Shown here: one piece after another, positions 5,435-58,661 of the stretch | How positions within the stretch are numbered: position 1 is the first letter of the stretch | How the letters are laid out: every line of letters starts with the position of its first letter | Assembly: GCA_021738625.1 (NCBI GenBank) | Contig: JAIPBS010000004.1 | Span: 62,001 to 126,000, forward strand | DNA length: 64,000 nt | Reading direction: 5' to 3' | Origin: Bacteroidales bacterium | GTDB lineage: Bacteria; Bacteroidota; Bacteroidia; Bacteroidales; JAIOZK01 | Made by a program: the position numbers and the translations under genes | The notes under the pieces: model-generated | The model's database searches: none | The model's input: the letters and a program-made list of their open reading frames with translations, nothing else | Told to the model about the DNA's origin: nothing

Positions 5435-5788
5435 ATGAAGATCATTACAAAAAGATTTACACTTTTAATCACAATCGCAATGCTGATACCGGCTCTGTTG
5501 CCCGCCCAAAGTTTTTCTCCAGGCGTGAAAGTGGGTGCAAACCTTTCAACTATTTCAACGGGCCTGTCTTCTTCCAACGACTGGAGAGTGGGTTTACAGG
5601 CGGGTGTTTTCGGCAAAATCAGGTTGAATGACTATACGGCCCTGCAACCTGAGCTGATGTATGCCCAAAAGAAAGCTGGCGCGGATTTGCAATCCGGGCC
5701 TTTGTTCAGGTCTTTCGGTTCTCACAAAAACAATAACTGTGTATCCCAACTGTTCAGGCAAATTGCTCTTAAACTGATATGTATATGA
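5435..5788 (+). pseudogene. Truncated PorT-like outer-membrane barrel gene, cut by an inserted element
   Basis: From ATG 5435 the product has a signal peptide (to about AQS at residue 26). The start of a PorT-family barrel follows: SPGVKVGANLSTIS, then TALQPELMYAQKKAG, the usual second strand of this family. At 5675 the coding sequence runs straight into a 139-bp inverted-repeat element, and the rest of the frame to 5788 is element sequence without barrel character. No barrel remainder follows the element, so about two thirds of the gene is missing. An in-frame ATG at 5384 exists but lacks a signal-peptide start. Confidence 0.75.
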
Positions 5789-5813
5789 GCACGGATTGCA
5801 AATCCGCGCCAGC
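5675..5813. mobile_element. 139-bp inverted-repeat (MITE/REP-like) element, copy 1
   Basis: The left end begins GCTGGCGCGGATTTGCAATC and the right end is its near-perfect reverse complement, ending AATCCGCGCCAGC. Each end is also a small hairpin by itself (GGATT-TGC-AATCC). The same ends occur at 7979, 8176, 12368 and 12482. No transposase is encoded, so it would need one in trans. It truncates a barrel gene. The interior differs from that of the other two copies. Confidence 0.8.
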
Positions 5814-6606: not shown

Positions 6607-6962
6607 ATCGCCGTTAATCAGCATCCTTTATAGAACTGGAATGTATTGGTTAATTGTGATTCGTCATTCGATGGTCATTCAGTGGAAATTCAATTGAAAT
6701 TCGTTGGTCATTCGGTGGAAATTCAATTGAAATTCGTTGGTCATTCGGTGGAAATTCATAGTCATTCGTAGTTGTTATTTGTTATTCATTATCATTCAGA
6801 TAAAAGTAGTGCGAGCCTGGGTTTATGCACTGTAAGCAGATTAATATCTTTTAACATTCATGGAAGCCTTTATATTCCATAGGGTTTTGGCGCCTTCGGG
6901 GCTATCTATTATACAGCAAATATTCCAGGACACTGAAGTTCACGAAGAAGCTATTCCGGCTT
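6607..6962. other. Gene-free stretch between convergent ubiE and nuclease genes
   Basis: The stretch holds the 11-bp repeat array at 6659-6797 and the start of a heptad array near 6954. The part between them (about 6798-6953) shows no coding frame and no recognisable structure. Confidence 0.7.
6659..6797 (+). repeat. 11-bp phased tandem repeat array 1
   Basis: ATTC cores stand at 6666, 6677, 6688, 6699, 6710, 6721, 6732, 6743 and 6754, exactly 11 bases apart, with looser units to 6797. The unit consensus is ATTCRDTKGWM. Positions 6688-6720 and 6721-6753 are a perfect 33-bp (three-unit) tandem duplication, which points to recent slippage or recombination. It lies between the 3' ends of ubiE and the nuclease gene. 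Confidence 0.9.
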
Positions 6963-6981
6963 CTAACTTCCGGCTTCCGGG
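6954..6981. repeat. Heptanucleotide array overlapping the nuclease stop codon
   Basis: Minus-strand units GAAGCCG, GAAGTTA and GAAGCCG supply the last codons (Glu-Ala-Gly-Ser) and the TAG stop of the nuclease gene. The repeat therefore overlaps the end of the coding sequence. Confidence 0.65.
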
Positions 6982-7805
6982 CTCATCGAAGTTGCTTCTT
7001 TCACAATGCTACTTTTACGTCTTTGCGTGATCGGCAGGTCGTTCAGTACATCCGGATTGTTTTTGATCTCCCGGCACAACACGATCCCTTTGTCTATCAA
7101 AATCTTTGTTTCCTTTTTAGTCAGTGATTTCAGGACGGTGATCGGGTGAAATCCCGACCGATCGATCCAGTCTTTCAGGCTGTTGCCTTTCGGAAAATCC
7201 CAGGACAAAAGTTTCAGGCCGGAGCATTTGCCGTATTGTTCGGCATCCAGTGTAAAACGCGTATTGGTGATGAGCATGGGCTCAAAAATCATATCCTGCT
7301 TTTGTTCGTCCAGTTTGTTTTTGATATCATGAAAACGGGAACGGACGTACAAACTGGTTTTCACATCGCTTTTGGCGCCTTCGGTTTGATGGAATTTACA
7401 CTCGGCCATGATCATTTTTCCGGGCTTTTTGGCAACTACGTCCACCTCATGTTCGACACATTTCCCCCGGATGATCTGCCCGGTCCTTACCTGATAGCCT
7501 TCGATTTCGAGCAGCCTGGCCACGAAATGCTCAAAAGGGAAACCTGTGGGCCCCAGTTGAAACAAGGCCTTTTTCAGTTTATACCGTCCCGCTGAGCGTT
7601 GGGACAATTTTCTGATTTTGGCGTAGGCGATCCGGTAAATCTTCTGGGTGGTGATCTCTTCATGAAGCTCCGACAGAACATCATTCAGCACTTCTTCAAT
7701 TTCCCGATCGCTTGCTCCCGAACGCCTCAGCGACTCCCGGAATTTTCCCCCGTCAAAAGGCTCCAGCTCGCCTGTATGCTTTCGTATGTTTATTTGTTGC
7801 TTCAA
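6963..7805 (-). CDS. ATP-cone domain fused to Mrr-like restriction endonuclease
   Basis: Residues 4-85 match an ATP-cone (INIRKHTGELEPFDGGKF), a nucleotide-sensing domain best known from ribonucleotide reductase and NrdR. Residues ~90-205 match a PDDEXK nuclease of the Mrr type: Asp122 in EHEVDVVAKKPG, and Glu135-x-Lys137 in MIMAECKFH. A helical tail (KSLTKKETKILIDKGIVLC) follows. It probably cuts DNA, possibly under nucleotide control, as defence or in repair. The apparent start is TTG at 7803-7805, which places the ATP-cone directly at the N-terminus; no in-frame ATG lies upstream. 11-bp arrays flank the gene on both sides. Confidence 0.83.
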   Translation of the reverse strand: MKQQINIRKHTGELEPFDGGKFRESLRRSGASDREIEEVLNDVLSELHEEITTQKIYRIAYAKIRKLSQRSAGRYKLKKALFQLGPTGFPFEHFVARLLEIEGYQVRTGQIIRGKCVEHEVDVVAKKPGKMIMAECKFHQTEGAKSDVKTSLYVRSRFHDIKNKLDEQKQDMIFEPMLITNTRFTLDAEQYGKCSGLKLLSWDFPKGNSLKDWIDRSGFHPITVLKSLTKKETKILIDKGIVLCREIKNNPDVLNDLPITQRRKSSIVKEATSMSPEAGS

Positions 7806-7857
7806 ATTACCGCTAATGTTTTCCGACCTCCAAAGTAGGAATTTCTTTTTAGACCAT

Positions 7858-7960
7858 AGTCATTCGATGGAAATTCAATGGAATTTAATTGTTATTCGGT
7901 TGTCATTCGATGGTCATTCAATGGTCATTCAGTTGTCATTCAGTTGTCATTCAGTTGTCA
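7858..7960 (+). repeat. 11-bp phased tandem repeat array 2
   Basis: ATTC/ATTT cores stand at 7862, 7873, 7883, 7894, 7905, 7916, 7927, 7938 and 7949, all 11 bases apart except one 10-base step. Unit and orientation are the same as in array 1. It lies upstream of the nuclease gene, so the two arrays bracket that gene as direct repeats. Confidence 0.9.
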
Positions 7961-7978
7961 CTATATGCACAATCGTAT

Positions 7979-8101
7979 GCTGGCGCGGATTTGCAATCCG
8001 TGCCTGTGTTTCAATATTTTAATAATAATAGTTAATAATCGTAGTGTGAATCATTTTATTTGGATGAAAAGTTTGCTGAAATTTGATATGGGCCCGGATT
8101 T
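7979..8101. mobile_element. 140-bp inverted-repeat element, right-truncated copy
   Basis: It begins GCTGGCGCGGATTTGCAATC. Apart from small indels, its interior (starting TGTGTTTCAATATTTTAATA, ending TGAAATTTGATATGGGC) is the reverse complement of the interior of the copy at 12368-12507. The right end stops after GGCCCGGATT and is replaced by heptad-like sequence. Confidence 0.78.
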
Positions 8102-8175
8102 CTGACTTTCGCCTTTCTGGCTCTCTGAATAATTGGTTTAAGAAGATCTGAGTATTTATCCGCCTATTGATTCAT

Positions 8176-8201
8176 GGCCCGGATTGCAAATCCGTGCCAG
8201 C
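8176..8201. repeat. Solitary end of the 140-bp element
   Basis: GGCCCGGATTGCAAATCCGT followed by GCCAGC is a complete right end of the element family without an adjoining interior. It may be the displaced right end of the truncated copy at 7979-8101. Confidence 0.65.
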
Positions 8202-8308: not shown

Positions 8309-10714
8309 ATGGCTGAAAGGGAAAAAATGGGAGATCAGAACAAGATTGACAGGCGCTGCTTCCTGAAGTGGAGCGCTATGCTGGGTGGGGGATTGGCCGT
8401 TTCATCCTCCTTGCTGAGCTGCCTTGACAGGCTGAAGGAGGAAGGCGTGGTGACCATCGAAAAGGGCTTCGACGGATTTGTGATCCGAACGGGCTGCCCG
8501 GCGCATAACTGCGGCGGCCGCTGCGTGCTGAAGCTGTTTGTGAAAGACAACAAGATCGTCCGCATTGAAACCGACGACCGGCCAACCGATGAAGTGAACG
8601 ACCCGCAGTTGCGGGCCTGCGTGCGCGGACGTGCCTACCGCCGCCGGCAATACCACCCCGACCGGTTGCAATACCCCATGAAACGCACAGGGCAAAGAGG
8701 GGAAGGCCGGTTCGAACGCATCAGCTGGGAGGGGGCCCTCGACCTGCTGGCCTCGCAAATCAAACGGGTAAGAAGTGAATACGGCAACTCTGCCATCTAC
8801 ATCCCATATGGCACGGGAAGCTACAACCAGATCAACGGGAGGCAAACAGCCGACCGACTGATGAACCTGCTGGGAGGCAGCCTGGGCTACTACAACAGCT
8901 ATTCCTGGGCATGCATCAGCCAGGCCACGCCCACGGTTTACGGCACCAATGTGACCGGCAACCAGCGTCAGGACTGGCTCAACTCAAAATACATCCTGAT
9001 GTGGGGCTGGAACCCGGCCGAGATGCGCGACGGCACCAACAGCGACTTCCTGATCAAGAAAGCGCGGGAGAACGGCGCCAAAGTGGTTTGCATCGACCCC
9101 CGCATGTCGATGAGCGCGGTGGCCCTGGCCGACGAATGGATCCCCATCCGCCCGGGCACCGACACCGCCCTGATGAGCGCCATGGCCCACGAGATCATCT
9201 CGGAAAACCTGCACGACAAAGATTTTATCGACCGCTGCTGCCTGGGCTTCGACCGCAGCCAGATGCCCAAAGGACTGGAAGCTGAAGAAAGCTATACCGA
9301 TTACATTTTCGGCAGGAAAGACGGACAGGAGAAATCGCCGGCCTGGGCAGAGGGCATCACGGGCGTCCCGCAGGAAACCATCCAAAAAATCGCCAGGGAA
9401 TACGCCACCACCAAACCCGCCATGCTTTATCAGGGCTACGGCATGCAGCGCAGGGCATACGGCGAGCAGCCCGTGAGAGGCGGCTGCGTGTTGGCGGCCA
9501 TCACCGGCAATGTGGGATTACACGGCGCCTGGTCGAGTGGGCTGGGCCTGCAAGCCAAAGACGGCGGCCCCTTCTGGAACGTATTCCCCACCGGCAGCAA
9601 TCCGGTGAAGGCGCGCATACCCGTTTTCCTGTGGACCGAAGCCGTTTTGCACGGCAAAGGCATGGGAAAAGAGTACGGCGTGAAAGGCACCGAACAACTC
9701 GACAACGACCTTAAGCTGATCTGGGCGGTGGCGTCCAACGCCCTGATCAACCAGCATGCGGATGTAAACCGAACGGCAAAGATTTTGAAAGATGAGAACA
9801 AGGTAGAGTTCATCGCGGTTCAGGACAACTTCCTCACCTCTTCGGGCATGTTCGCCGATCTGATCCTGCCGGCCTGCACCCAGTTCGAGACCTGGGGGCT
9901 GGAAGACGGTTGGAAATACGGCGACGAGGTGATCATCATGCCGCAGATCGTGGAGCCACCCTTCGAAACCAAAAGCGATTACCACATCTGTGCAGAGCTG
10001 TCGAAACGCTTCGGTGTATATGACGCATACACGCAAAATCGCTCCGAGCAGCAATGGATCGAATGGGTGGTGGAGCAATACCGCAAAAGCCGCTTTCCGG
10101 AAATTCCCTCCCTGGATAATCTGAAAAAAGAAAACACAGGCGTTTATGCGGTTAAGGTAAACAATCCTGAAATTGCCTTCGATAAGTTCAGGGAAAACCC
10201 GGAAGCTCATCCACTGCCAACGCCTTCAGGGAGGATCGAGATATTCTCATCAAAGCTTTATGAATTGAACAATCCAAAGGAAATTCCACCCGTCCCCAAA
10301 TATATACAGGAATGGGAAAGTCCCTTTGACGCTTCGGCGGAGAAATATCCCTTACAAGCTATGGGGCATCATTACATGGCCCGGGTACATTCCACCCACG
10401 ACAACAACGATTGGCTGGCTGAGGCATTCCCGCAAAGGGTGTTCATCAACCCGATGGACGCCGGGAAGCGGGACATCAAAAACGGTGACATGGTACGTGT
10501 GTTCAACGAAAGGGGTAGCCTGTTGCTCCCCTGCCGGCTCACTCCCAAGCTGATGCCGGGCGTAGTGGATATTCCACAGGGGGCCTGGTGGAAGCCGGAT
10601 GGAAACGGCCACGACAGGGGCGGCTGCGTCAACACCCTGACTTCGCACCGCTGGACGCCATATGCCTTTGGAAATGCGCAACACACCATCATGGTGGAAA
10701 TTGAAAAAGCTTAA
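8309..10714 (+). CDS. dmsA: DMSO-reductase family molybdopterin oxidoreductase, catalytic subunit (DmsA-type)
   Basis: The 801-residue protein starts with a Tat signal (DRRCFLKWSAMLGGGLAVSS), so it is exported folded. An N-terminal [4Fe-4S] site follows (TGCPAHNCGGRCVLK, then LRACVRGRAYRR). The Mo-bis-MGD domains carry YNSYSWACISQ, where Ser199 (or Ser197) fits the Ser-ligand type II/III family. The C-terminal domain has dinucleotide-binding segments (NPMDAGKRDIKNGDMVRVFN). It likely reduces DMSO, TMAO or a similar oxide with electrons from menaquinol. It heads dmsABC. An alternative start at 8327 gives a shorter n-region. The gene is visibly more GC-rich than most neighbours. The true substrate is not certain. 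Confidence 0.88.
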   Translation: MAEREKMGDQNKIDRRCFLKWSAMLGGGLAVSSSLLSCLDRLKEEGVVTIEKGFDGFVIRTGCPAHNCGGRCVLKLFVKDNKIVRIETDDRPTDEVNDPQLRACVRGRAYRRRQYHPDRLQYPMKRTGQRGEGRFERISWEGALDLLASQIKRVRSEYGNSAIYIPYGTGSYNQINGRQTADRLMNLLGGSLGYYNSYSWACISQATPTVYGTNVTGNQRQDWLNSKYILMWGWNPAEMRDGTNSDFLIKKARENGAKVVCIDPRMSMSAVALADEWIPIRPGTDTALMSAMAHEIISENLHDKDFIDRCCLGFDRSQMPKGLEAEESYTDYIFGRKDGQEKSPAWAEGITGVPQETIQKIAREYATTKPAMLYQGYGMQRRAYGEQPVRGGCVLAAITGNVGLHGAWSSGLGLQAKDGGPFWNVFPTGSNPVKARIPVFLWTEAVLHGKGMGKEYGVKGTEQLDNDLKLIWAVASNALINQHADVNRTAKILKDENKVEFIAVQDNFLTSSGMFADLILPACTQFETWGLEDGWKYGDEVIIMPQIVEPPFETKSDYHICAELSKRFGVYDAYTQNRSEQQWIEWVVEQYRKSRFPEIPSLDNLKKENTGVYAVKVNNPEIAFDKFRENPEAHPLPTPSGRIEIFSSKLYELNNPKEIPPVPKYIQEWESPFDASAEKYPLQAMGHHYMARVHSTHDNNDWLAEAFPQRVFINPMDAGKRDIKNGDMVRVFNERGSLLLPCRLTPKLMPGVVDIPQGAWWKPDGNGHDRGGCVNTLTSHRWTPYAFGNAQHTIMVEIEKA

Positions 10715-12367: not shown

Positions 12368-12507
12368 GCTTGCGCGGATTTGCAATCCGTGCCCATATCA
12401 AATTTCAGCAATCTTTTTATCCAGATTAAATGATTCACACTAGGATGATTAACCATTACTTTTATTAAAATATTGAACACAGGCACGGATTGCAAATCCG
12501 CGCAAGC
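12368..12507. mobile_element. 140-bp inverted-repeat (MITE/REP-like) element, complete copy
   Basis: The ends are GCTTGCGCGGATTTGCAATC and its reverse complement at 12482-12507. The AT-rich interior matches the truncated copy at 7979-8101 in reverse orientation. Its length almost equals that of the copy at 5675-5813, although that copy has a different interior. No protein is encoded. Confidence 0.82.
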
Positions 12508-56035: not shown

Positions 56036-56168
56036 TAAAAGAATAGTGAATGCAGGATGGAGAAATGTTAATTGAAGATGGAAGCTAGAAGTCAGTAGTC
56101 AAAATATAGAATTTAGCAGATAGCAGATAGCTAGGAGTTTGGCGCCTAATAACAACTAGATGACCACT

Positions 56169-56260
56169 GAATGACCACCGAATTTCCATTGAATGACAAT
56201 CGAAGTTCCATTGAATGACAATCGAAGTTCCATTGAATGACCATCGTATTCCAACCGAAT
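56169..56260 (-). repeat. 11-bp phased tandem repeat array 3 (glmM promoter region)
   Basis: On the plus strand the cores GAAT/GAAG/GTAT stand at 56169, 56180, 56191, 56202, 56213, 56224, 56235, 56246 and 56257, exactly 11 bases apart. The unit matches arrays 1 and 2 in reverse orientation. The last unit ends 3 bases before the glmM -7 element, so the array fills the region where -33 and upstream activator sites would lie. Confidence 0.9.
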
Positions 56261-58058: not shown

Positions 58059-58113
58059 ATTCGGTAGTCATTCGACAGTCTTTCTTTTTTCATTCAGTAG
58101 AAATTCAATTTTG
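58059..58113 (+). repeat. 11-bp phased tandem repeat array 4
   Basis: ATTC (once TTTC) cores stand at 58059, 58070, 58081, 58092 and 58103, exactly 11 bases apart. It lies upstream of the HigA-like gene and has the same orientation as array 5 downstream of it. Confidence 0.8.
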
Positions 58114-58198: not shown

Positions 58199-58567
58199 AT
58201 GAACATAAAACCTATAAGAACAGAAGCTGATTATCAACTTGCATTAAAAAGACTTAACGAAGTATTTAATGCACCCTTGAATACTCCAAGGAGCGATGAG
58301 GCGGATATACTGGCCGTACTTGTGGATGATTATGAAAATAAACATTATCCCATCGACCCACCAGACCCAATAGACGCCATCAAAATTCGCATGGAGGAAA
58401 TGCAGCTCAAACAAAAAGACCTTGTTCAGGAAATCGGCGGAAAAAGTCGTGTTTCGGAAATACTTAACCGTAAGCGCAAGTTAACTGTAGAAATGATCCG
58501 AAAACTAACTACAAGGTTGAGCATCTCTGCCAATATCCTGGTAAGGGACTATGAACTGGGCAGCTAA
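58199..58567 (+). CDS. HigA-type antitoxin, orphan
   Basis: The 122-residue protein has the N-terminal region of HigA proteins (IKPIRTEADYQLALKRLNEV) and a C-terminal XRE-type helix-turn-helix (MQLKQKDLVQEIGGKSRVSE, then ILNRKRKLTVEMIRKLTTRL). HigA neutralises the HigB mRNA interferase and represses its operon. No HigB-like gene or remnant is seen on either side, so it may act as an orphan regulator. 11-bp arrays lie at both sides (58059 and 58614). Confidence 0.87.
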   Translation: MNIKPIRTEADYQLALKRLNEVFNAPLNTPRSDEADILAVLVDDYENKHYPIDPPDPIDAIKIRMEEMQLKQKDLVQEIGGKSRVSEILNRKRKLTVEMIRKLTTRLSISANILVRDYELGS

Positions 58568-58613
58568 TCCAAACAGTTGGAAATTTGTTTGTAAAAAAAG
58601 AAAATCAGTTGTC

Positions 58614-58661
58614 ATTCAGTAGAAATTCAATTGTCATTCGGTGGAAACTCAATTGTTGTTC
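58614..58661 (+). repeat. 11-bp phased tandem repeat array 5
   Basis: Cores stand at 58614, 58625 and 58636 (ATTC), 58647 (ACTC) and 58658 (GTTC), all 11 bases apart. With array 4 it brackets the HigA gene in direct orientation. Confidence 0.78.

Follow-up and report, generated by a model that had tools for sequence, protein, structure and literature searches.

Why does a single nuclease-like gene sit between two short-period tandem arrays of the same unit and orientation? The window, by which we mean the whole 64,000-nucleotide stretch of DNA that was analysed, had been given a sequence-only reading in which nine ATTC cores on either side of one accessory gene recur every 11 bp, with one 10-bp step, and, at a period near one helical turn, would lie on one face of the DNA, suiting a cooperatively bound protein or curvature. 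All nine cores proposed for array 1 were recovered, at 6666, 6677, 6688, 6699, 6710, 6721, 6732, 6743 and 6754, with 11-bp steps throughout, and a tenth ATTC follows at 6764 after a 10-bp step. For array 2 the proposed positions and the single 10-bp step hold, but the count of nine ATTC cores does not, as the array comprises eight ATTC cores (7862, 7873, 7894, 7905, 7916, 7927, 7938 and 7949) and one degenerate ATTT unit near 7884. The two arrays do share an orientation and do bracket a single ORF (Table 1). Read from its conserved end, the unit is GTCATT followed by CRRTD, ~11 bp in all, and its variation is limited by position (A/G, A/G, then G/T/A, with the last two bases mostly TC or AA). 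A higher-order repeat of 33 bp, present in 2.8 copies with 96% matches, runs inside array 1. Further arrays of the family lie elsewhere in the window, and the last two in Table 1, on the same strand, enclose an HTH ORF (58199-58567, 122 aa; HTH_3 matched weakly, under the Pfam cut-off).

Table 1. Positions in the window of the arrays, the bracketed ORF and the neighbouring hairpins.
Feature	Coordinates	Strand	Remarks
11-bp array 1	6666..6774	+	~9-10 units ATTCRDTKGWM; single arm; ubiE (+) on one side, Mrr ORF (-) on the other
ORF, 280 aa	6963..7805	-	ATP-cone + Mrr_cat + AF1548-like_C; lies between array 1 and array 2
11-bp array 2	7862..7959	+	9 units, one degenerate; single arm; REP-like hairpin 3' of the array
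REP-like hairpin GCTGGCGCGGATTTGCAATCCGTGCC	7979..8004	+	first of an inverted pair, 3' of array 2
REP-like hairpin, inverted partner	8176..8201	-	AGAAGTC-type heptamer repeat on the outer side
11-bp array, array 1/2 family	56151..56260	-	10 units
11-bp array, array 1/2 family	58059..58113	+	4 units, degenerate
11-bp array, array 1/2 family	58603..58657	+	5 units

Followed beyond the window, the consensus proves to be a genome-wide repeat family. The two-unit pattern matches the 4.1-Mb assembly 244 times and its reversed form 2 times, and mapping in 826 kb of fetched sequence, in part picked for containing matches, gave 34 arrays with 3-29 units each, where the reversed sequence yielded 0; thus, the periodicity is not a product of chance. 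Placement relative to genes is uniform in one respect, as all 34 mapped arrays are intergenic, but the arrays are not confined to the surroundings of the Mrr gene. No Rfam family matched them at the gathering threshold, so that a known RNA family was rejected as their identity, and the literature searched contained no description of an element with this unit, in keeping with the earlier statement that no named element with it is known. The three-unit pattern occurs in at least 114 stretches of the GTDB genome collection; nearly all of the matches listed come from Bacteroidota MAGs, with Ignavibacteria, Neomarinimicrobiota and two desulfobacterial MAGs also among them, and with Dyadobacter sediminis as the cultured carrier listed. 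The family is patchy in an even sample of 395 genomes of the phylum (198 matches in the window's own genome, G000, 47 in G412, 6 in G078 and 0 in most). Most of the genomes analysed are draft MAGs, and their genes were called by a simple hexamer scorer. At the stringency of the pattern the same-genus genome G001 has one array only, at the site orthologous to locus L065 of the own genome.

A helically phased operator array, in which a dedicated protein binds the ~11-bp unit cooperatively and regulates flanking genes or organises the nucleoid, would account for the strictly intergenic placement, for the restricted variation of the unit and for the predominance of the 11-bp step, which makes up 408 of about 540 steps counted over 80 loci from related genomes. 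The same count includes steps of 10 (42), 14 (25), 15 (15), 16 (8) and 18 bp (14) with a few others, and such a range within one family implies that constant helical phase is not a conserved property. Arrays of 10 bp (ATTCATGGTC) are interleaved with 11-bp arrays in the own genome, and mini-hairpins, for example GCTTCGC or GCCCTTCGGGC, make up many of the longer spacers. The number of units, anywhere from 3 to 29, shows no favoured value, the arrays follow no rule of orientation or distance to promoters, and the sister species is nearly devoid of them. Furthermore, an operator array leaves unexplained the convergent pairing and the link to S23 genes described below, and the short hairpin-forming pairs favour 3' ends between convergent genes (10/20, against a baseline of 71/561). 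The phased operator was rejected because the spacing varies and neither a promoter rule nor an orientation rule is seen; we regard it as improbable, and one-face protein binding likewise lacks support as a conserved property.

Direct flanking arrays could alternatively be substrates for recombination, through which the gene between them is gained or deleted, be it the Mrr gene, the HTH ORF or the ORF at locus L055. Same-strand pairs bracket a single gene in three cases, two of them in the window and the third at L055, and the Mrr gene is missing from the corresponding, rearranged locus of G001, which agrees with its description as accessory. However, both arrays are absent from the G001 locus too and ubiE is inverted there, so that no footprint of array-mediated recombination is readable, and array-mediated gain or loss of the Mrr gene was set aside. 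Aligned without gaps, the two arrays match at just 60-75% identity, which is poor for homologous recombination. Arrays fall in neighbouring intergenic slots 5 times where 0.3-3.0 are expected for an assumed total of 30-90 occupied slots; this clustering is modest at best and depends on the array total assumed, and gene bracketing as a general rule was rejected on that account. We consider it very unlikely that the arrays act in this way.

The arrangement of paired arrays points elsewhere. Among loci from other genomes, neighbouring arrays on opposite strands within 700 bp of each other are convergent in 29 cases and divergent in 1, which establishes a convergent architecture; the own genome contributes one convergent pair, S23-bearing, among its 31 arrays of at least 3 cores, for an overall ratio of 30:1 at most. 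Of the convergent pairs from other genomes, 24 enclose a gene-free loop of less than 150 bp and 3 enclose an S23 ORF. Long hairpins are predicted for the short pairs; the two arms of an element are not reverse complements unit by unit. Convergent pairs are often asymmetric (L115-L192, e.g. L153 9-241 and L132 2655-2881), with 11-bp spacers in one arm only and mini-hairpin spacers (GCTTCGC, GGCCTGCGGCC) in the other.

Gene calling in 138 loci gave 1368 genes, and when these were clustered the top family beside GTCATT arrays was S23 (the 23S_rRNA_IVP family, PF05635, a four-helix bundle known from the intervening sequences, IVSs, of ribosomal RNA), with 6/11 members adjacent to an array compared with 16% of all genes. 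One S23 clade is flanked by inverted GTCATT arrays, converging on the gene from both sides, in many Bacteroidota. At L065 of the own genome, an S23 gene (9918-10313, E 1.9e-25) has a forward array at 9812-9899 and a reverse array at 10290-10377, and G001 keeps a remnant of this gene beside its orthologous forward array. In the reciprocal test, a profile of six S23 proteins was run on the 395 phylum genomes with arrays ignored. Forward cores upstream and reversed cores downstream accompany 10 of the 11 S23 loci that score at least 174 bits, the remaining one (L278) having them downstream only, and wrong-strand cores are almost absent; below 165 bits, most loci are flanked by inverted units of other kinds. 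On a tree of 55 S23 proteins the GTCATT label requires 4 changes compared with 9.5 for shuffled labels, and 0/500 shuffles came as low. The clade (at least 162 bits) is present in 29/50 genomes picked for arrays, or 24/45 when the five that were sources of the profile seeds are excluded, versus 12/395 otherwise, and arms lie beside 24/28 of its genes in the array-picked genomes. Dyadobacter sediminis Z12, which can be cultured, has a gene of the clade whose downstream side bears a reversed GTCATT-type arm. Array-bearing genomes without any match to the clade number 13/50, many of them incomplete MAGs. PF05635 as a whole is present in 232/296 sampled Bacteroidota genomes.

The relation extends beyond the GTCATT unit. 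An inverted-flank score of at least 14 was reached by 23/55 S23 genes, by 2/55 in direct orientation and by 2/180 control genes, and the mean score of S23 flanks was 17.1 with their own partner, 9.1 with a swapped partner and 9.3 in direct orientation; by the flank score used, some S23 genes have no clear arms. Among S23 genes picked without regard to arrays, the inverted layout is phylum-wide and the 7-11-bp unit is specific to each clade, so that S23 clade and repeat unit are paired; in the own genome, most S23 copies proved on inspection to have inverted arms, with a unit that differs by copy. S23-bearing copies also differ from the arrays at large in that they are placed in sense between co-directional neighbours, as found for 46/54 S23 genes with both neighbours called, versus 78/183 controls, and for 21/23 in a second S23 set. 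Intergenic S23 genes with tandem-repeat arms were not found described in the literature searched, a search that took in papers outside subscription.

This association might nevertheless be incidental if the arrays were short tandem repeats of a neutral kind, much like cyanobacterial STRR or the TAACTGA heptamers, which grow through slippage and are dispersed when they happen to recombine, with S23 genes merely inserting in or near them. Slippage is evident from the 33-bp higher-order repeats and the heterogeneity of units, most arrays of the own genome are solo, and the same genome holds many other short-tandem-repeat families, with arrays of 7- and 8-bp units among them. The sites shared by G000 and G001 bear on this point. 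In the CysN (sulfate-assimilation) region common to both, one intergenic site is occupied by a different S23 gene in each species (36/94 identical). Their arms, one pair with an 8-bp and the other with a 7-bp unit, score 32.5 and 59, respectively, inside their own element but 5-7 between the species; since gene and arms differ together at this locus, the arms go with the gene and not with the locus. A second shared site has a truncated S23 gene with GTCATT-type cores upstream in G000 and an ORF-less heptamer hairpin in G001, and at a third, one S23 gene with one unit is kept in both. All 32 of the GTCATT arrays tested away from S23 genes were closer to the S23 arms of their own genome than to any of 60 foreign arms, as were 46/62 solo arrays of other units, which suggests that the mixed short tandem repeats of this genome are largely solo arms of several S23 element types. 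Neutral repeats would explain neither this match to own-genome arms, nor the change of arms together with the S23 gene at one locus, nor a unit that the S23 clade predicts across genera, nor convergence at 29:1, and we judge that account unlikely.

The CysN-type gene lies in an S23 gene cluster of ~15 kb (L339 5369-12190, that is G000 C74:75369-82190, and G000 C74:90668), whose intergenic sites are occupied in the same-genus genome by different S23 elements or hairpins. At L339 3540-4080 the S23 ORF of G000 has an internal deletion and is split by a further insert with inverted repeats; its counterpart in G001 is an intact S23 with an identical arm unit.

The dispersed arrays have a unit identical to that of the S23 arms of their own genome. 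Because the array unit is the one that mirror-flanks S23 genes, we read the arrays around the Mrr gene as leftover arms of a repetitive element and not as a DNA-binding platform for Mrr. We put a probability of roughly 0.7 on the conclusion that the arrays in the window are solo arms of a family of intergenic, IVS-like S23 stem-loop elements. Neither array 1 nor array 2 is paired with an inverted array, both being same-strand single arms, and no S23 gene accompanies the window arrays (no S23 match is listed on their contig, C49); their membership is therefore based on the identity of the unit and on what is seen across the genome. The Mrr ORF that they enclose is of a different family, outside the element family.

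A full element would consist of two arrays of degenerate GTCATT units (~11 bp), the first forward and the second reverse, with a short loop or an S23/IVP ORF between them. IVSs without an ORF are known. Once co-transcribed, the element may form a long hairpin that either sets the S23 ORF apart or is cut back by RNase III, and it is by analogy with rRNA IVSs that we infer such folding and trimming in transcripts. Excision at the RNA level, mobility of the element, recognition by S23 of its own repeat and a role of S23 in spread or maintenance are likewise presumed. Solo arms such as those around Mrr would arise when one arm of an unstable palindrome is lost and the other is then reshaped by slippage, to which the 33-bp higher-order repeats may be owed. 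In the own genome solo arms are far more numerous than GTCATT-type S23 copies; they do not share the sense, operon-like placement of S23 elements and are indifferent to gene orientation, so that they may have another origin. This indifference is the chief point that the S23-element reading leaves unexplained. A wider version is possible, although we lean against it, namely that a large class of minimal mobile elements has the intergenic S23 genes of Bacteroidota as its coding part and, at its ends, tandem arrays of a clade-specific 7-11-bp unit which the cognate S23 protein recognises, with solo copies and ORF-less hairpins spread in trans, and that such elements are the source of much degenerate short-tandem-repeat DNA and possibly of the heptamers of other phyla.

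The S23 repetitive element family has been little noticed so far. Its nearest known relatives in structure are the 23S rRNA IVSs with an S23p ORF in Coxiella and Leptospira (PMC4990558), which share the stem-loop, the terminal inverted repeats and the sense S23/IVP ORF. In rRNA IVSs the terminal inverted repeats form a stem that RNase III cleaves, and the S23p ORF lies in sense; the Coxiella IVS has tandem heptamers (GACAGAT) before this ORF as well as terminal inverted repeats, and the function and origin of IVSs are still unclear (PMC4990558). In the family described here, full copies contain the S23/IVP (PF05635) ORF (L065 9918-10313; L276-L286), which is absent from the window arrays, and the inverted-repeat stem appears in the 29:1 pairs, the predicted hairpins and the S23 flanks, whereas the window arrays are same-strand arms. 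Protein-coding genes, not 23S rRNA, surround the arrays and S23 genes examined, and we therefore call the elements IVS-like and not IVSs. They differ further in that their arms are long degenerate tandem arrays with a clade-specific unit, single-arm copies are abundant and excision is a presumed step. Tying S23/IVP genes to inverted, clade-specific tandem-repeat arms defines an element architecture, suggests possible routes of element maintenance or movement, and could explain why short tandem repeats, otherwise a puzzle, are dispersed in the carrier genomes. The TAACTGA heptamer direct repeats (MacGregor 2015, PMC4679880) and cyanobacterial STRR are likewise dispersed, intergenic and patchy, with Bacteroidetes included, but the unit here is 11 bp and not a heptanucleotide, and inverted arms surround S23 genes, a link not found for those repeats in the literature searched.

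RAYT-associated REP/BIME sequences resemble the arrays in being extragenic, multi-copy and hairpin-forming, and a REP-like hairpin lies 3' of 7/34 arrays in the genome (array 2 and six others) at similar spacing. However, the 11-bp unit is not palindromic, unlike the REP unit (palindromic, 20-40 bp), and the adjacent hairpin is a separate element. A pattern search found no Y1 family transposase near the REP-like hairpins, and the two clear Y1 transposase genes of the genome (154 and 159 aa) are not near any hairpin that matches. A REP/RAYT origin of the arrays was rejected, as other hairpins abut other repeats and the Y1 genes are without a matching hairpin nearby. At L055 6106-7276, a 170-aa ORF without a Pfam match lies between two direct copies of array, spacer and REP pair. 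Inverted REP-like pairs (GCTG-GCGCGGATTTGCAATCCGTGCC) occur in the window at 5679-5809, 7979-8201 and 12372-12503, among 45 sites in the genome, and in many copies a short tandem repeat, whose type varies, lies on the outer flank.
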